A DNA stretch of 64,000 bases. Source: Komagataeibacter swingsii (GTDB lineage Bacteria; Pseudomonadota; Alphaproteobacteria; Acetobacterales; Acetobacteraceae). The position numbers and the translations under genes were made by a program. This document shows positions 1,995 to 63,612 of this stretch, piece by piece. The notes beneath the pieces were generated by a model, which worked only from the letters and a program-made list of their open reading frames with translations, was not told the DNA's origin and ran no database searches. Each line of letters opens with the position of its first letter. Position 1 is the first letter of the stretch. Where the stretch lies: the NCBI RefSeq assembly GCF_003207895.1, contig NZ_NKUB01000001.1:310001-374000 (forward strand). The letters run 5' to 3'.

Positions 1995-1999
1995 TACAA

Positions 2000-2051
2000 G
2001 GCAGCGGTCTTTCGAAGCTTTTTGAAAAAAGCTTCATCAAAAACCGTTGCC
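2000..2051. repeat. Intergenic hairpin repeat, short copy A
   Basis: A hairpin of GAAGCTTTTT, a 2-nt loop and AAAAAGCTTC (2014-2035) lies inside an outer inverted repeat GGCAGCGGT (2000-2008) / ACCGTTGCC (2043-2051). The core matches the GAAGC arm of five other intergenic elements in this window (30541, 34190, 47321, 55575, 63451), but the second GCCGCC arm is absent. It sits between the convergent sufA and methyltransferase genes, where it could terminate both strands. Confidence 0.8.
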
Positions 2052-30540: not shown

Positions 30541-30621
30541 AAAAGTTTCTGGGTGCCGCCTTTTTTCAAAAAGGCGGCGTTTCCTGAAGCTTTTTGAAAA
30601 AAGCTTCATCAGGAACGTCTT
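30541..30621. repeat. Two-hairpin intergenic repeat, copy B
   Basis: Outer arm AAGTTTCTGGGTG, hairpin GCCGCC-T6-C-A5-GGCGGC (30555-30578), linker, hairpin GAAGCTTTTT...AAGCTTC (30586-30607), and outer arm CATCAGGAAC. It starts 15 nt after the RNase J stop and is in the opposite orientation to copies C, E and F. It probably ends the RNase J transcript. Confidence 0.85.
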
Positions 30622-34189: not shown

Positions 34190-34269
34190 AAAAGTTTCTG
34201 GTGAAGCGTTTTTCCAAAAAGCTTCGCAGAACGCCGCCTTTTTCAAAAAAGGCGGCACTCAAAAACTTA
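34190..34269. repeat. Two-hairpin intergenic repeat, copy C
   Basis: Outer arm AAAGTTTCTGGTG, hairpin GAAGCGTTTTTCC...AAAAAGCTTC (34203-34225), linker CGCAGAAC, hairpin GCCGCCTTTTTC...GGCGGC (34233-34256), and outer arm ACTCAAAAACTT. It starts 12 nt after the lolD stop and lies 64 nt before dnaE, so it probably insulates dnaE from the lol operon. Confidence 0.85.
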
Positions 34270-34332
34270 TGGGGATGGCAGGACCCGCACAGGGACGTGC
34301 GAATCATATGCGGTGTGGAGTAGGATGCAACC

Positions 34333-40636: not shown

Positions 40637-41974
40637 ATGACAACGTTTGCCGATCTTCATCTTGCAGAGCCGCTGCTGCGGGCACTGGACGAGGAAGGCT
40701 ACGCCACGCCCACCCCCATTCAGGCCGGCGCCATTCCCTACCTGCTGGAAGGGCGCGACCTGCTGGGTCTGGCACAGACCGGAACGGGCAAGACCGCGGC
40801 CTTCGCGCTGCCGATCCTTGACCGCCTGTTCCGTGAAAAGGGCCGCGCCCACCCCAAGGGCGCGCGCGCGCTGGTGCTGGCGCCGACCCGCGAACTGGCA
40901 TCCCAGATCGGGGAAAGCTTCGCATCCTATGCCCGCCACATGCGCTTCAGCCACGCCGTGGTGTTTGGTGGCGTGGGGCAGGGACGCCAGATCGAGGCGC
41001 TGCGCCGTGGCGTGGACGTGCTGGTCGCCGCCCCCGGCCGCCTGCTGGACCTGATGGGGCAGGGGCATGTCGACCTGTCCGGGCTTGAGGTGCTGGTGCT
41101 GGATGAAGCCGACCGCATGCTGGACATGGGCTTCGTGCGCGATATCCGCAAGATTGTCGCAGCCCTGCCGACCGACCGCCAGACGCTGCTGTTCTCGGCC
41201 ACCATGCCCAAGACCATTTCCGACCTGGCGCATGGCCTGCTGCGTGATCCCGCCACCGTGCAGGTCACCCCGCCGTCCAGCACGGTGGACCGCATCCGCC
41301 AGGCGGTGATGTTTGTCGATACCGGCAACAAGCGCGAGGCGCTGAAGCTGCTGGTGGACTCGCCCAAGGTCGAACGCGCCGTGGTGTTCACGCTGATGAA
41401 GCATGAAGCCAACAAGGTCGCGGCCTTCCTGAGCGAACACGGCATCACGGCCGAAGCCATCCACGGCAACAAGTCGCAGGGCGCGCGTGAACGCGCCATG
41501 TCGGGTTTCCGGTCCGGCAACGTGAAGGTGCTGGTGGCGACCGATATCGCAGCGCGCGGCATTGACGTGGACGACGTGACCCACGTGTTCAACTACGACC
41601 TGCCCAACGTGCCCGAAAGCTATGTCCACCGTATCGGCCGCACGGCGCGCGCCGGGCGTGAAGGCTGGGCCGTATCCCTGTGTGACGCGGAACAGCGGGC
41701 ATGGCTGCGCGATATTGAAAAGAATATCGGCAAGAAGATCCCGGTCGTGTCCGAACATCCGTACCATTCGGAATCGGCCGAGAACTCAACCATGCGCCCG
41801 CCCGTGCTGGGTGGCGGTGGCCGTGGTCGTGGCGGCGGCGGTGGCCGTTCCGGTGGCGCACGCCCCGGTGGTGGTGGACGCCCGGCCGGTGGCGGTCGTC
41901 CGTCCGGTGGTGGGCGTGGTGGCCGCCCCGGCGGCGGTGGCCGTGCCGGTGGCGCAGGTCGTCGCGCGGTCTGA
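40637..41974 (+). CDS. DEAD-box RNA helicase (RhlE-like) with Gly/Arg-rich tail
   Basis: A 445-aa ATP-dependent RNA helicase with [58 protein letters not shown] and [13 protein letters not shown]. After the core (about residue 385) comes a tail of roughly 55 residues made almost entirely of Gly, Arg and Pro (GGGG/RGG-type repeats), typical of RNA-binding tails in cold-adaptation helicases. ATG 40637 has AGGAGG 8 nt upstream; the upstream open frame is not conserved. A strong terminator follows. Confidence 0.93.
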
Positions 41975-42451: not shown

Positions 42452-45400
42452 ATGTTAAGGGAATTGTGGCTGAAGTGGGGCGGTCGTGCGTTCATGGCCA
42501 CGCCGCGCGGGTCGAAGTGGCTTGTCAGCTTTCTGTTGGCTGGGGGGGCGTTTCTCTGCCTGTCTGTTGGCAACATCACCCTTGCGCCCGAACAGCAGGC
42601 CTATATTTCCGTGGGCACGATCAGCCTGTTCTTCCTGCTGAACCGCAGGAAGGGGCGGCACGTCACCTGCATCCTCATGATGCTGTCACTGTTCGTGTCC
42701 TTCCGCTACCTGATCTGGCGGCTGGGCAGCACGGTGCAGTTCGCCGGCCCGCTGCAGATTGTCATGTCGGTGGCCCTGCTGCTGGCGGAGGGGTACGCCC
42801 TGTCCACCCTGTGCCTGAGCTATTTCCAGATGTCATGGCCGCTGGGCCGCAGGCCGCACCGCCTGCCGGACAACCCCGATGAATGGCCGATGGTCGATGT
42901 CTATGTCCCGTCCTATAACGAGGATCTGGAACTGGTGCGCTCGACCGTGCTGGGGGCGATGGACCTGCACTGGCCCGCGGACAAGCTGAATGTCTATATC
43001 CTGGATGACGGGCGGCGGAAGTCCTTTTACGATTTTGCACGGGAATCCGGCGCGGGCTACATCATCCGCGCCGAGAACAACCACGCCAAGGCGGGCAACC
43101 TCAACCATGCCATGAAGATCACCAGGGGGGAATTCGTGGTCATTTTCGACTGCGACCACGTGCCCACCCGGTCCTTCCTGCTCAAGACCATTGGCTGGAT
43201 GATGGCCGATCCCAACCTGGCCCTGCTGCAGACGCCGCACCATTTCTATTCCCCCGACCCGTTCCAGCGTAACCTTGCGGCCGGGTATGACGTGCCGCCC
43301 GAAGGCAACATGTTCTACGGGCTGGTGCAGGACGGCAATGATTTCTGGGATGCGACGTTCTTCTGCGGTTCGTGTGCCGCCATCCGCCGTTCGGCGTTGC
43401 TGAGTGTTGGCGGGTTCGCGACCGAAACGGTTACGGAAGACGCCCACACCGCGCTGAAGATGCAGCGCAAGGGGTGGGGTACGGCCTACCTGCGCCAGCC
43501 GCTGGCCGGCGGGCTGGCGACCGAACGGCTGATCCTGCATATCGGCCAGCGCGTGCGCTGGGCGCGTGGCATGCTGCAGATCATGCGGCTGGACAACCCC
43601 CTGCTGGGCGGTGGCCTGCGGTGGGAACAGCGGTTGTGCTACCTGTCGGCCATGTCGCACTTCCTGTTCGCCATTCCCCGGGTGACCTTCCTTGTCTCCC
43701 CGCTGGGGTTCCTGTTTTTCGGGCAGAACATCATTGCCGCGTCGCCCTTCGCCATCATGGTCTATGCGCTGCCGCACATCTTCCATTCCATCATGACCCT
43801 GTCGCGGATCGAGGGGCGATGGCGCTATTCCTTCTGGAGCGAGATCTACGAAACCTCGCTTGCGCTGTTCCTGGTCCGCATCACCATCGTGACCCTGCTG
43901 CAACCGCACAAGGGCAAGTTCAACGTGACGGACAAGGGCGGGCTGCTGGCGCGGGGCTATTTCGATTTCAGCGCGGTGTACCCCAATGTCGTCATGGCGC
44001 TGGTCCTGTTCGTGGGGATGGTGCGCGGCATCCTGGGCATGATTTTCCAGTATCACCAGAAACTGGCGTTCCAGTCCTTCGCGCTCAACACGCTATGGAT
44101 CACCATCAGCCTGATCGTGGTGCTGGCGTCCATCGCGGTGGGGCGCGAGACGCGGCAGATCCGGCACAAGCCGCGGGTGCGGGTCAAGCTGCCGGTTGAT
44201 GTCTGCTTTGGCGATGGTGCGGTCTTCCATGCCCATACCACCGATATCTCGCTGGGCGGGGCGGGCGTGACCCTCAGCCTGCCCAGGCAGCTCGAAACCC
44301 CGCTGGATGTCACCCTGCGCTACAGCAAGCCCGATGACGAAATCATGGTGGCGGTGCCGGCCACCATACTCGGGCAGCGCGGTTCATGGCTGCACCTGCA
44401 ATGGAAAATCGAGACGCTGGAACAGGAACGCCAGATTGTCAGCCTTGTGTTCGGTCGAAGCGATGCATGGCATAACTGGGCCGATTTCAAGGATGACCGA
44501 CCGTTGAACAGCATATATCAGGTCATAAAAAGCATAAGTGGCCTTCTGTCCCCGCCTTACCTGTGGGATCTCAGCCCGGCGCAGGAATCTGAAGAAGGTG
44601 ATGCAAGCGTGCACAAGGAAGAAACGCTGGAAAAAAAGAGCCTTGTGGTGCCGCCTGTCCATCGGGGCATTGGCTATGGCATGACCATGATGGCGGTAGG
44701 GGCGGGCATGCTGCTGTCGCTGGTGATGCCCGCCACGGCGCAGGACGCCGCCTTGCCCCCGCCCGCGCCGCCCGCACCACCCGCGCCGCCGTCGCAGGTT
44801 TACACGACGACCGGCGTGTCGCGCCTGACCCCGCTGGGGGATACCAACAGTGGCGACATCCCGCCCGTGGGCGGCATGGTGGACCCGACGCTGGCGGACC
44901 GGGTGGCCGATACCGAAATTACGCGCACCATCCCGTTCCATGACCTTGGCCTTGAAAATGGCCCGCTGACCCTGCGGGGCTTTTCGCCATTGCAGGGAAT
45001 TGACGTGGTGGTGCCGGCCAACCGCGTCGTGACCCATGCGACGCTGAAGCTGTCGGGGGCGATTTCGCCCTCGCTTCTGCCCGAAGCCACGGCGCTGACC
45101 GTCACCCTGAATGAACAGTATGTCGGCACCATCCGCATCGATCCCGCCCATCCGACTTTCGGACCGATGGAATTCGCGGTCGACCCGCTTTATTTCACGG
45201 GGGACAACAAGCTCAATTTCCATTTTGCCGGTGAATACAGGCGTGACTGCAACGACCTGTACAATGATGTGCTGTGGGCGCAGATATCGGACCAGTCCAG
45301 CATTACCCTGACCACGGCGCGGATCGTGCCTGAACGTGACCTGAGCCGGCTGCCGGTGCCCTTTTTCGATCCCAACCTGAAGGTGGCCATGCGGGTGCCG

Positions 45401-47086
45401 GTGGTCATGCCTGCGGCAGCGCCGGGGGAGGACATCATGCGGGCGGGGGGGCTTGTCGCCTCATGGTTCGGCAAGATGGCTGATTCCCGGCGGCTGTCCT
45501 TTCCCGTGTCGCGCAGCATGCCCGCATCCGGCAATGCCGTTGAAATCGGTCAGGACATTCCCGTTGATGACCAGGGGCACATGCCCGGCGGCCCGACGCT
45601 GCTGGAAATTGCCAACCCCAATGACAAATGGGGCACCATCCTGGTCGTGACGGGACGCACGCCGCATGAGGTGGAGGTCGCGGCCCGCGCACTGGTGTTT
45701 TCGCCCGATACCCTGGGCAGCACCGCGTCCACCGTGGTGCAGGACGTCACCCTGCGTTCCCGCACGCCTTATGACGCCCCGGCCTTCATCCCGACGGATC
45801 GCCCGGTGCGCTTTGGCGAACTGGTGACGGCAGGCGACCTGCAGGCAGGCGGTTTCACGCCCGGTACGCTGCATGTGCCGTTCCATCTGCCGCCGGACCT
45901 GTACACTTGGCACGGGCTGCCTTTCCTGATGGACCTGTGGGTACGCACGCCCGATAACCCGGTGGTCGATATCAGCGCGTCCCGCCTGGATGTCAGCCTC
46001 AACAACTCCTACCTGCAAAGCTATTCGCTGCTGGGCAACAGCCTGTGGCGCACATGGTCGGAACGGATGGTCACCCAGCATGCGGGCGCCGTGGGGCATG
46101 TCACGGCGCTGCCGTCATGGCTGCTGTTCGGGCAGAATGACCTGCAGTTCAATTTTGATACCCGCCCGATGGACCGGGGGGCCTGCCGCCGTACGCCCGA
46201 TAACCTGCGGCTGGGGATTGATTCGGATTCCGTGCTGGATTTCCGGCGCGGGGTGCATTTCGCGACGCTGCCCAACCTGTCCTATTTTTCCGAAATCGGG
46301 TTCCCGTTTTCGCGCATGGCCGACCTTGGGGAAACCACGGTGGTCCTGCCGCCCACGCCGGATACCGACACGATCGGGGCCTATCTTGACCTGATGGGCT
46401 TCATGGGGTCGGTCACGTGGTATCCCGCCGCGGGGGTGCATCTGGCGACGACGACGGATATCGCGCGCAACCCGCCATCGGGCGACATCATCCTGCTGGC
46501 GCCAGTAGGGCAGATGGGACCGGCGGCTTCCCTGCTGTCGCGTTCGGCATACCAGATTGACGACGGCCATATCCATGTCGGTCAGGATATGGGGCTGCAG
46601 GGTATCTGGTACATGTTCCAGGACCGTGACGGCAGCGGCCTGCGCAATGGCGTGACCGCCAACCTGAACGCCCCGGTGCATAACGTCGCGATGATGATCG
46701 GGGCGGAATCCCCCTATGCCAGCCATCGTTCGGTGCTGGCGCTGCTGGGGGATGACGGCGCGCATATCCATGAACTGGTCACCAGCCTGCATGACCGCAA
46801 GGCGCTGTCCAGCCTGCAGGGCGACCTTGTGCTGAAGAATGGTGACAAATTCACGACCTATCGCACATCCCCCACCTATACCGTGGGCAGTTTGCCGCTG
46901 TGGATGTGGGTGGACTGGTTCCTGTCGCGCCACCCGGTCCTGATGTACCTGTGCGGTGTGGCGGGTGCGTTCATGCTGGGAACGGGCGCATGGCTGTGGC
47001 TGCGTGCCCGCGCCCGCCGCCGGGTGCGTGAACAGGCCATTGCCGATGAAGCCGCACGCATGGCGGGGCATGTTCCCGGAGACTGA
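42452..47086 (+). CDS. bcsAB: Cellulose synthase BcsA-BcsB fusion (solitary copy)
   Basis: A 1544-aa fusion of the catalytic and periplasmic subunits, making beta-1,4-glucan from UDP-glucose. The GT2 domain has DDG (Asp185), DCD (Asp233/Asp235), TED (Asp330) and QRVRW (Gln366-Trp370), between blocks of membrane helices. A PilZ domain follows with the c-di-GMP ligands RHKPR (571-575) and DISLGGAG (Asp598), so allosteric activation by c-di-GMP is expected. A membrane segment at about 741-765, ending in a signal-like TAQDA, leads to the BcsB part (about 790-1500) and a final anchoring helix. No bcsZ/ccpAx lies upstream and no bcsC, bcsD, bcsX or bglX downstream, so this is not the main Komagataeibacter operon but a solitary paralog. 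Activity cannot be judged from sequence. Confidence 0.95.
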   Translation: MLRELWLKWGGRAFMATPRGSKWLVSFLLAGGAFLCLSVGNITLAPEQQAYISVGTISLFFLLNRRKGRHVTCILMMLSLFVSFRYLIWRLGSTVQFAGPLQIVMSVALLLAEGYALSTLCLSYFQMSWPLGRRPHRLPDNPDEWPMVDVYVPSYNEDLELVRSTVLGAMDLHWPADKLNVYILDDGRRKSFYDFARESGAGYIIRAENNHAKAGNLNHAMKITRGEFVVIFDCDHVPTRSFLLKTIGWMMADPNLALLQTPHHFYSPDPFQRNLAAGYDVPPEGNMFYGLVQDGNDFWDATFFCGSCAAIRRSALLSVGGFATETVTEDAHTALKMQRKGWGTAYLRQPLAGGLATERLILHIGQRVRWARGMLQIMRLDNPLLGGGLRWEQRLCYLSAMSHFLFAIPRVTFLVSPLGFLFFGQNIIAASPFAIMVYALPHIFHSIMTLSRIEGRWRYSFWSEIYETSLALFLVRITIVTLLQPHKGKFNVTDKGGLLARGYFDFSAVYPNVVMALVLFVGMVRGILGMIFQYHQKLAFQSFALNTLWITISLIVVLASIAVGRETRQIRHKPRVRVKLPVDVCFGDGAVFHAHTTDISLGGAGVTLSLPRQLETPLDVTLRYSKPDDEIMVAVPATILGQRGSWLHLQWKIETLEQERQIVSLVFGRSDAWHNWADFKDDRPLNSIYQVIKSISGLLSPPYLWDLSPAQESEEGDASVHKEETLEKKSLVVPPVHRGIGYGMTMMAVGAGMLLSLVMPATAQDAALPPPAPPAPPAPPSQVYTTTGVSRLTPLGDTNSGDIPPVGGMVDPTLADRVADTEITRTIPFHDLGLENGPLTLRGFSPLQGIDVVVPANRVVTHATLKLSGAISPSLLPEATALTVTLNEQYVGTIRIDPAHPTFGPMEFAVDPLYFTGDNKLNFHFAGEYRRDCNDLYNDVLWAQISDQSSITLTTARIVPERDLSRLPVPFFDPNLKVAMRVPVVMPAAAPGEDIMRAGGLVASWFGKMADSRRLSFPVSRSMPASGNAVEIGQDIPVDDQGHMPGGPTLLEIANPNDKWGTILVVTGRTPHEVEVAARALVFSPDTLGSTASTVVQDVTLRSRTPYDAPAFIPTDRPVRFGELVTAGDLQAGGFTPGTLHVPFHLPPDLYTWHGLPFLMDLWVRTPDNPVVDISASRLDVSLNNSYLQSYSLLGNSLWRTWSERMVTQHAGAVGHVTALPSWLLFGQNDLQFNFDTRPMDRGACRRTPDNLRLGIDSDSVLDFRRGVHFATLPNLSYFSEIGFPFSRMADLGETTVVLPPTPDTDTIGAYLDLMGFMGSVTWYPAAGVHLATTTDIARNPPSGDIILLAPVGQMGPAASLLSRSAYQIDDGHIHVGQDMGLQGIWYMFQDRDGSGLRNGVTANLNAPVHNVAMMIGAESPYASHRSVLALLGDDGAHIHELVTSLHDRKALSSLQGDLVLKNGDKFTTYRTSPTYTVGSLPLWMWVDWFLSRHPVLMYLCGVAGAFMLGTGAWLWLRARARRRVREQAIADEAARMAGHVPGD

Positions 47087-47320
47087 CCGGGCGGGACGCG
47101 GCACCGGATATGTCCCGCGTCCCGCATGTCCGTGTGGCGTGCAGGCATAACGGAGCAGTGGATTCCGGCATGGGAACGGGAATGGGCCTGTCACAGGCAT
47201 GGCAGGCCGGTCGCGGTGGGATCTGGCCGTCGCATCGCACGCGCGGTCCGACGGGGGGCGTAATGTTTTGACTGTATTATGTTTTTAAGGACTGTCTGAA
47301 ATCAGGCCATTGATGGATGA

Positions 47321-47400
47321 AAGGTTCCGGATGCCGTCTTTTTTCAGGAAAGCGGTATTTCGGAAAGCTTTTTGAAACAAGCTTTGCCAAAAACGTCTTT
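47321..47400. repeat. Two-hairpin intergenic repeat, degenerate copy D
   Basis: The order matches copy B: GGTTCCGGATGCCGTC, then TTTTTTCAGGAAAGCGGT (decayed GCCGCC arm), GGAAAGCTTTTTGAAAC...AAGCTTTGCC (GAAGC arm), then AAAAACGTCTTT. Both arms carry mismatches. It lies between bcsAB and the convergent tRNA-Ser gene. Confidence 0.7.
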
Positions 47401-55550: not shown

Positions 55551-55574
55551 TCCCCTGAAAGCCGGCTGAATTTC

Positions 55575-55659
55575 AAAGGGGTTCCTGGTGAAGCTTTTTC
55601 CAAAAAGCTTCAGGAAACGCCGCCTTTGGGGGAAAAAAGGCGGCGCCCGAAAACTTTTC
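55575..55659. repeat. Two-hairpin intergenic repeat, copy E
   Basis: Outer arm GGGGTTCCTGGTG, hairpin GAAGCTTTTTCC...AAAAAGCTTC (55590-55611), linker AGGAAAC, hairpin GCCGCCTTTGGGGG...AAAAAAGGCGGC (55619-55644), outer arm GCCCGAAAACTTTTCC. Lies between the convergent flippase and copper receptor genes. Confidence 0.88.
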
Positions 55660-55671
55660 CTTTTTGTCAGG

Positions 55672-58402: not shown

Positions 58403-59311
58403 ATGTTCTCGTGGGTGCGGCCCTTTTTGTCAAATGGAACGCAGGCCGCCGTACCGGCCATGATGGATGGAACCGTGCCGCAACAGCAAGACAGAACGGC
58501 AGCCCGGCTGCTTGTGCCCGACGGTGCGCGCACGCGCGGGCGCTGGGCGCGCATGGCGGCCGGGTGGGCGGTGCTGCTGGCGGTGCTGGGGCATGGGGTG
58601 ATCGGCGCATGGCTGCTGCCGGGCGGTGCGAAGGTGCCTGCGTCGCCCAGCGAAAAAAACGCCATCCAGGTCTTTTTTGATCGGCCGGAGGTTGCAACGC
58701 CCTCCGAACCGGCTACACCACAGCCACAGCCACAGCCACAGCCACAGCCACAGCCACAGCCACAGCCACAGCCACAGCCACAGCCACAGCCACAGCCACA
58801 GCCACAGCCACAGCCACAGGCCATGCCCCATGTGGCGGGCAGCCAGGAAACGCCGGTCGTGCGGCATGTCCCCGCCGGCACGCCTGTGTCACCCTTACGG
58901 GCACCCGCCCACGCAACGGCCCCGCATGCAGCGCCTGTTCCGCCGCCCGTGGCCCCATCCGGCTCACGGGCCGATACCGCCCATGCCATGGCGGCACCCG
59001 GCCATGCGCAACAGGCGGCAGCGGCGGCAATGCCTGCCGCCGCATTGCATTGCACGCCACCCGCATGGCGTTATCCCCCCATGGCCCGGCACATGCATGA
59101 AGAAGGTAGCGCGCTGGTGGATCTGGTCATTGGCGGGCAGGGGCAGGTGGTGCAGGCAAGCCTGCGCGCCAGCAGCGGTTATGATGATCTGGACAGCACG
59201 GCCGTCGCCGCCGCGCGCAATGTCCACTGCACGTCGGATGGGGGGGCGCTGGAGGGCAGGCATCTCACACTGCCGGTCGTCTTCCACCTGAAGGGGCAGG
59301 GAATGCCCTGA
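58403..59311 (+). CDS. tonB: TonB energy transducer with (PQ)17 linker
   Basis: A 302-aa TonB-type protein: cytoplasmic N-terminus (about 50 residues, long for the family), one transmembrane helix (GWAVLLAVLGHGVIGAWLL), a periplasmic Pro-rich spacer with 17 Pro-Gln pairs, and the C-terminal TonB fold (CTPPAWRYPPMARHMHEEG through LTLPVVFHL). It transfers proton-motive energy from ExbBD to an outer-membrane receptor; its divergent placement next to the copper receptor points to that partner. The shared 47-nt divergent gap allows joint control. exbB/exbD are not in the window. Confidence 0.88.
   Translation: MFSWVRPFLSNGTQAAVPAMMDGTVPQQQDRTAARLLVPDGARTRGRWARMAAGWAVLLAVLGHGVIGAWLLPGGAKVPASPSEKNAIQVFFDRPEVATPSEPATPQPQPQPQPQPQPQPQPQPQPQPQPQPQPQPQPQAMPHVAGSQETPVVRHVPAGTPVSPLRAPAHATAPHAAPVPPPVAPSGSRADTAHAMAAPGHAQQAAAAAMPAAALHCTPPAWRYPPMARHMHEEGSALVDLVIGGQGQVVQASLRASSGYDDLDSTAVAAARNVHCTSDGGALEGRHLTLPVVFHLKGQGMP
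58718..58819 (+). repeat. Hexanucleotide tandem repeat (CCACAG)17 in tonB
   Basis: Seventeen uninterrupted copies of CCACAG, 102 nt, encode (Pro-Gln)17. The perfect nucleotide identity of all units, with no synonymous changes, suggests recent slippage expansion. Gains or losses stay in frame and would change only spacer length. Confidence 0.97.
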
Positions 59312-63376: not shown

Positions 63377-63450
63377 GGGGACAGCCCCCGGAAACATGTA
63401 TTTCTTAGAGACTGTTTGAAACGTCAGATCATGATAGCGCTTTAAAATTA

Positions 63451-63533
63451 AAGGAAGTTTTTGGTGAAGCTTTTTGCAGAAGCTTCGAAAGAACGCTGCC
63501 TTTTTGAGAAAAAGGCGGCACCCAAAAACTTTT
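63451..63533. repeat. Two-hairpin intergenic repeat, copy F
   Basis: The best-preserved outer arms: AAGTTTTTGGTG (from 63455) and CACCCAAAAACTT. Inside are GAAGCTTTTTGC/AGAAGCTTC (63466-63487) and GCTGCCTTTTTGAG/AAAAAGGCGGC (63495-63519). Lies between the convergent SDR gene and the hypothetical gene at the window end. About 40 nt upstream, GACTGTTTGAAA resembles GACTGTCTGAAA ahead of copy D. Confidence 0.9.
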
Positions 63534-63612
63534 ATTGTTTTTTATCAATGAGTTGTTTTCAAGTAGTCTCTTGCCGATTGCCCGGCCTCCCGCAGCCAGG
63601 CAATGGGGCTGG

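Follow-up and report, generated by a model that had tools for sequence, protein, structure and literature searches.

What is the short non-coding repeat that recurs between genes in the window, by which is meant the whole 64,000-nucleotide stretch of the Komagataeibacter swingsii genome analysed here, and does it do anything for the genes beside it? The preliminary description of this DNA recognised six intergenic elements of shared design, present in both orientations, that could fold as three-way junctions and resembled a REP/MITE-type repeat. The structure, mobility, distribution and genomic position of these elements suggest a 3′-end function for the transcripts of neighbouring genes.

Architecture and abundance of the element

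All six places in the window carry the ~80-nt element, three on each strand, although only five of the copies (B to F) are complete, the sixth (copy A) being truncated (Table 1). The core comprises an outer stem around two T/A-cored hairpins, and consists in order of AAAAGTTTTTGGGT, hairpin 1 (GCCGCC-T6-C-A5-GGCGGC), a linker of 7-8 nt, hairpin 2 (GAAGC-T5-G-A6-GCTTC), an A and CCAAAAACTT, with variation among copies. The best RNA fold, in the element's own direction, is the three-way junction for copies B, E and F, in agreement with the preliminary description, but that of copy C differs and copy D folds no more stably than shuffles, 31 of 200 of which fold as well. In copy A the 5′ arm of the GCCGCC hairpin is missing, so that this copy does not form the three-way junction of the others. 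Flanking this copy are GGCAGCGG and CCGTTGCC, which are predicted to form a new stem around its hairpin 2.

Table 1. Coordinates of the element copies and associated features (positions in the window unless a locus is named).
Feature	Position	Strand	Context or basis
Copy A, truncated: 3′ half of hairpin 1, linker, hairpin 2, 3′ outer arm	1996..2046	+	
Copy B, three-way-junction core	30541..30619	+	16 bp 3′ of the stop codon of an RNase J-type gene (Pfam); co-directional gap
Copy B, outer stem 5′ arm GTTTCTGG	30545..30552	+	Sequence, predicted fold
Copy B, hairpin 1, GCCGCC-T6-C-A5-GGCGGC	30555..30578	+	Sequence, predicted fold
Copy B, hairpin 2, GAAGC-T5-G-A6-GCTTC	30586..30607	+	Sequence, predicted fold
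Copy B, outer stem 3′ arm TCAGGAAC	30609..30616	+	Sequence, predicted fold
Copy C, core	34192..34270	-	Between ABC-transporter gene (ends 34178) and DNA polymerase III alpha gene (starts 34333); Pfam
Copy D, core	47320..47397	+	Convergent gap between fused cellulose synthase gene (ends 47086) and tRNA-Ser gene
Copy E, core	55580..55658	-	Convergent gap 55551-55671
Copy F, core	63454..63533	-	Inside full-length MITE
Copy F, full-length MITE, 163 bp	63408..63570	-	Sequence
Copy F, terminal inverted repeat GAGACTGTTTGAAAC	63408..63422	+	Sequence
Copy F, other terminal inverted repeat TTTTCAAGTAGTCTC	63556..63570	+	Sequence
821-bp IS5-type element	L095:7454-8274		Further sites: L089, L112, L113, L118-L122, L183, L325

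The prediction that the density of copies in the window would amount to hundreds per genome holds. Searches with nhmmer returned 45 matches (E<1e-6) in the window plus 400 kb of the K. swingsii genome and 70 (E<1e-4) in 864 kb, the latter extrapolating to ~302 copies per 3.73 Mb. A scan of the 864 kb for the architecture only, which is specific but insensitive (it recovers two of the six window copies), identified 32 elements, compared with none in one dinucleotide-shuffled copy.

The mobile unit is a 162-bp MITE

The limits first assigned to the element were too narrow. Beyond the cores, in the outward direction, a subset of copies have longer ends in common, GAGACTGTTTGAAAACAA...TTTTCAAACAGTCTC, and the best-kept copies form the core of a 162-bp MITE with 15-bp terminal inverted repeats (TIRs), GAGACTGTTTGAAAA, and TNA duplications. 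With at most one mismatch allowed, the 15-bp TIR matches the genome at 93 places and its reversed pattern at none, and all 30 of the 93 ends inspected have a core nearby and belong to the MITE. Twenty full-length MITEs listed span 159-164 bp, 11 of them with an exact 3-bp duplication, while another full-length copy is 150 bp. Across all loci compared, exact 3-bp duplications border 18 of 31 full-length copies and 17 of these are TNA (p about 1e-19 against 1 in 32).

Transposition is also evident from an orthologous empty site, a comparison proposed in the preliminary description. In genome G015 the element lies six bases 3′ of a TAG stop codon, while the orthologous K. swingsii site shares both the gene end and the sequence downstream but lacks the element; the left duplication of the G015 copy is altered (TTG) and the right is TTA. 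The remaining candidate matches to empty sites are nested copies or remnants. These data, together with the TIRs and TNA duplications, bear out the earlier MITE-type classification.

Full-length copies in K. swingsii are about 92-97% identical to copy F, and one that is 91% identical resides on a Novacetimonas hansenii plasmid. A search of plasmids with the MITE and its two ends found copies in Komagataeibacter and Novacetimonas, plus short chance matches, and no recognisable IS; a 20-base match lies under a K. saccharivorans transposase annotation. No phage match was obtained. None of the 23 PF13340 and 28 PF01609 matches in the K. swingsii assembly, a draft of 113 contigs at whose ends pieces of IS occur, is a transposase bearing the MITE ends. 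TNA duplications are typical of one IS5 subgroup, and an IS5-type DDE transposase presumably mobilises the MITE in trans.

The fold is conserved within Acetobacteraceae

The preliminary description also suggested that differences between copies maintain the fold rather than the exact sequence. Within K. swingsii, stem pairing is 94-96% for the hairpins and 78% for the outer stem, but compensating changes of the kind cited only just exceed shuffles (23 copies; these 23 of the 42 rows of alignment A1 were used for both this test and covariance model R1). RNAalifold predicted hairpin 1 alone on A1, as hairpin 2 is shifted in one subfamily. It is between genera that the evidence for retention of the fold is strong. 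The 14 genera sampled have this architecture with stems that differ in sequence yet remain complementary, and a similar outer stem (around ATAAAAGTTTTT/AAAAACTTTTAT) encloses two T/A-cored hairpins with stems such as CTCCC/GGGAG, GTTC/GAAC, CTTC/GAAG, GGGGGC/GCCCCC and GTCC/GGAC. In 26 elements from these genera, 197 of 208 pairs at the four stem positions adjoining the T/A core are Watson-Crick, compared with a mean of 108 and a maximum of 132 when arms were swapped among the 26 molecules (5000 trials); because the model that retrieved the distant loci rewards pairing, their pairing level is partly selected, whereas the difference in arm sequence is not. In an alignment (A4) of 13 of the 17 distant loci L308-L324, 10 pairs have changed on both sides, against a mean of 5.1 in shuffles, none of 500 of which was as high, and 1-7 pairs for slid structures; further pair types in this alignment do not exceed shuffles. 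Covariation of hairpins can also arise from templated repair of palindromes. In one distant genome (G038; L308, L367 and L384) the hairpin stems differ among copies while the architecture is kept, unlike the near-identical copies of Komagataeibacter.

The covariance-model search of relatives envisaged at the outset was extended from the genus to the class. R1, built from K. swingsii copies, finds matches in every one of the 19 genomes of the genus, with at least 150 (all the candidates scored) in each of 12 genomes and the lowest value, 54 of 150, in G010. A second model, R2, was constructed from the 13 distant copies and contains no Komagataeibacter sequence, yet finds 19 of 19 Komagataeibacter-group genomes. 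With 17, 11 and 11 candidates scored per genome under strict filters in the family, order and class, respectively, a depth at which absence is unproven, R1 matched 44 of 249 genomes and 21 of 102 genera in the family, and R2 matched 105 of 395 genomes in the order (each match listed lying within Acetobacteraceae) and 2 of 385 in the class, both Acetobacteraceae, with nothing outside the family matched. The recovery of Komagataeibacter by R2 and the confinement of matches to one family show that this is a structure of the Acetobacteraceae, and not merely the repeat of one genus.

The element lies behind genes

Neither the spread of the element over the family nor its position at gene ends formed part of the earlier account. 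Genes were called with a simple codon-score gene finder plus tRNAs, and at distant loci by a longest-ORF rule; 52 of 54 seeds were kept in the position analysis. The 70 K. swingsii copies occupy 45 convergent, 23 co-directional and 2 divergent gaps, although these classes make up 15%, 52% and 33% of intergenic bp, respectively. In a second genome, G014, the 57 copies are distributed 32, 24 and 1. Convergent gaps are thus occupied in 45 of 105 cases (43%) in K. swingsii and 32 of 56 (57%) in G014, and divergent gaps in 2 of 109 and 1 of 59 (2% each), a difference in occupancy with p=1e-14 and 4e-12, respectively. Measured against the share of intergenic bases, the convergent excess (p=2e-20 in K. 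swingsii, 6e-5 in G014) and the divergent deficit (p=7e-10 and 3.5e-6) are both apparent, and the median distance to the stop codon is 35 bp in K. swingsii and 17 bp in G014.

The preference is not uniform. In 320 kb from four other genomes, 10 of 13 copies are co-directional and three convergent. An element is present in 3 of 42 convergent gaps (7%) and in none of the 40 divergent gaps, so that these four genomes show no convergent excess. The 26 loci of distant genera comprise 12 co-directional, 11 convergent and 3 divergent gaps, and 27 of the 34 adjacent gene 3′ ends at these loci lie at most 60 bp from the element.

Cores outlast MITE ends, and single sites turn over

Among full cores away from stretch ends, 64 in K. 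swingsii and 36 in G014, many have no detectable MITE flank. In K. swingsii 15 retain both flanks, 23 one and 26 neither, and the last group has a median identity to the core consensus of 0.87; in G014 the corresponding cores number 26, with a median identity of 0.85.

Individual sites were compared among relatives. The gene pair around copy E was compared at 16 loci in 15 genomes, at eight of which the core is present, five times in one orientation and three in the other; hairpin 2 in G003 is now GTGAC/GTCAC. The other eight loci have a 75-82 bp gap without the element, indicating that it is dispensable there, and G004 contains one locus of each type. At the site of copy F, where six genomes match on both sides, K. 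swingsii has the full MITE, G011 and G001 have a core in the same orientation, G003 and G008 have it in the opposite orientation, and G002 contains a remnant. K. saccharivorans LMG 1582 has no element at the sites orthologous to copies B and C. These comparisons show that single sites gain, lose and invert the element. The regions compared in a survey of five genomes were not syntenic. A separate comparison covered 20 orthologous pairs of neighbouring genes, of which six have the element on at least one side, too few for a test.

The turnover bears on whether the element is a purely selfish MITE that inserts into AT-rich intergenic DNA, with copies purged from promoters so that the survivors lie behind genes. 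Its hairpins would then be transposition signals with no role for the host, alike through recent spread, gene conversion and palindrome repair. The TIRs, TNA duplications and empty site, the high identity of full-length copies, the two orientations at one site and the absence of the element from both K. saccharivorans sites and half of the copy E loci would all be expected of such a repeat. It is harder to reconcile with the co-directional gaps of K. swingsii, which hold only 33% of copies, with the persistence of cores without MITE ends, or with the distant loci, where no MITE ends were visible by eye and stems vary inside one genome. A purely selfish MITE is regarded as unlikely.

An IS5-type element inserts in the hairpins

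The hairpins are themselves targets for a second mobile element, an 821-bp IS5-type element with ends GGGCCTGTTGGG and a transposase in two overlapping frames. At all 11 K. swingsii sites in the stretches and transposase loci sampled its junction falls in the central T-run of an element hairpin, hairpin 2 in most cases, although at L122 only a hairpin half remains beside the IS. A search of the whole K. swingsii genome lists eight left ends of this IS, all among the 11 sites. Of the two left ends listed in G016, one lies within a hairpin of the element and the second in no more than a T6CA run, which suggests that the target may be the T-run, a feature that the element supplies. Two of these loci were considered as the MITE parent. 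The IS at L095, with half a core on each side, proved to be an insertion into hairpin 2 with other ends, and L119, where a TIR-like 15-mer precedes a transposase, is the same case.

A proposed terminator-like role at transcript 3′ ends

On balance, the element is interpreted as a bidirectional, terminator-like 3′-end element that spread as the passenger of a MITE, a reading to which we assign a probability of about 0.5, with termination being the step that we infer. Directly behind the outer stem the transcripts would have U-rich tails, containing on average 4.69 of 8 U on one strand (n=72) and 5.53 of 8 on the other (n=45), compared with an intergenic background of 1.80 of 8; these counts cover the 72 and 45 copies that fit the search pattern. 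In these copies U-rich tails are thus found on both strands, as in bidirectional intrinsic terminators, and in combination with the position of the element this suggests a terminator usable from both sides.

Mismatches in the stems provide a hint at the RNA level. In co-directional gaps, those on the transcribed strand comprise 26 G-U and 11 A-C (p=0.02; p=0.04 for the same versus the opposite orientation), an excess that would follow if pairing were maintained at the RNA level. The test is weak, as data are few, copies share ancestry and convergent copies are likewise G-U-rich (20 G-U vs 10 A-C on the element + strand). The G-U excess, and the existence of co-directional copies, argue against a DNA-level element, a cruciform or protein-binding site that would relieve positive supercoils between convergent genes. 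Such a role would account for the convergent preference in two genomes and for strong palindromes with A/T tracts, and insertion of the IS at hairpin centres implies that something at the DNA level recognises the hairpins or their T-runs. Gyrase at Escherichia coli BIMEs offers a parallel. Nevertheless, a DNA-level role of this kind is considered very unlikely.

The mismatches, the structure and the position behind stop codons would equally suit a REP-like mRNA 3′ stabiliser or processing site, which would protect the transcript from exonucleases or be cleaved by a double-strand ribonuclease but would not terminate transcription. U-rich tails on both strands are a better fit to termination, and stabilisation or processing by itself is considered improbable.

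Several observations count against the terminator role. Canonical terminators are equally common at gene ends with and without the element: 12 of 90 vs 17 of 96 convergent ends and 3 of 23 vs 41 of 347 co-directional ends in K. swingsii, and 8 of 64 vs 4 of 42 and 1 of 23 vs 20 of 147, respectively, in G014. The proposal that the element replaces canonical terminators was therefore rejected. The stem next to the U-tract is A/U-rich (closing stem GTTTTTGG/CCAAAAAC), and not the G+C-rich stem that directly precedes the U-tract in intrinsic terminators. Copy B is located in front of an older canonical terminator, which is present in K. saccharivorans too, and the best fold of its reverse strand consists of two hairpins without the outer stem. 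To these can be added the dispensability of the element at the copy E gene pair, the missing convergent excess in four genomes and the 3 of 26 distant loci that are divergent.

In the terminator model, a flanking gene transcribed past its stop codon would yield an RNA in which the two hairpins are held by the outer stem, followed immediately by a U-rich stretch, whichever strand is read. The folded RNA may release RNA polymerase, fix the 3′ end of the transcript, or both, and one element could thereby insulate two convergent genes. In Komagataeibacter the core would ride in the 162-bp MITE, moved in trans by the putative IS5-type DDE transposase; insertions 3′ of stop codons would be tolerated or useful, and the core would be kept there while the MITE ends decay.

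Relation to known systems

IS5-type bacterial MITEs are short and non-coding, with TIRs and 3-bp TNA duplications. The element shares these traits and is dispersed, but departs from them in its inner core, whose fold is conserved in many genera and which persists after the ends are lost; a transposase gene with the element's ends was not found in the draft genome. Like REP sequences and BIMEs, the element is dispersed, palindromic and intergenic and has an IS inserted in its hairpin loops; IS1397 inserts in BIMEs. Unlike REP/BIME repeats with RAYT, it is an 80-nt three-way junction in a genome where the Y1 transposase (PF01797) has no match in the draft assembly (5 of 14 control genomes match); a REP/RAYT identity was rejected on this result, and the REP-type label is not supported in the strict sense. 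A survey of REP/RAYT-type repeats records CGTC repeats as missing from Acetobacteraceae (BMC Genomics 2013, PMC3733652).

The element also resembles bidirectional terminators of convergent genes in being near-symmetric, in its U-rich tail on both strands and in its position at convergent gene ends, but is distinguished from bidirectional intrinsic terminators by two hairpins in an outer stem, an A/U-rich closing stem and mobility. Pairs of uptake sequences can also serve as terminators. Correia/NEMIS, ERIC and RUP are short mobile intergenic elements that fold as RNA, as does the element described here, which has another sequence and fold. Rfam identified only four tRNAs above gathering score in the window, and only microRNA-family matches, far below gathering scores, for five relatives. 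The literature searched, in which most subscription journals are outside coverage and which includes the accessible parts of PMC3733652 and PMC4686929, holds no description of the element.

The element is classified here as a MITE in Komagataeibacter and its core as a structural element of the Acetobacteraceae, the terminator role being advanced as a hypothesis. More broadly, the Acetobacteraceae may possess their own class of 3′-end element, a bidirectional three-way-junction terminator that in Komagataeibacter and its neighbours became a transposon passenger, colonising up to half of a genome's convergent gene pairs, so that a mobile element would format many gene ends, with a function that outlasts mobility and a second life as the landing site of a specialised IS; this fuller proposal is held at slightly less than even odds. 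If it is correct, one mobile element would provide the transcript ends in a large part of some genomes and would represent a clear exaptation of a transposon for a basic function. It would also offer compact insulators for engineering these bacteria and a named repeat family for annotation. As the cellulose producers are easily grown, the terminator role is directly testable.

The fused cellulose synthase gene (42464-47086), behind which copy D is located, combines glycosyl transferase, PilZ and BcsB domains in a single frame. A DEAD-box helicase gene carries Gly-rich coding repeats (41810-41956) at its 3′ end, and a gene encoding a TonB C-terminal domain (PF03544) contains a tandem CCACAG repeat (58694-58831), possibly a linker of variable length.
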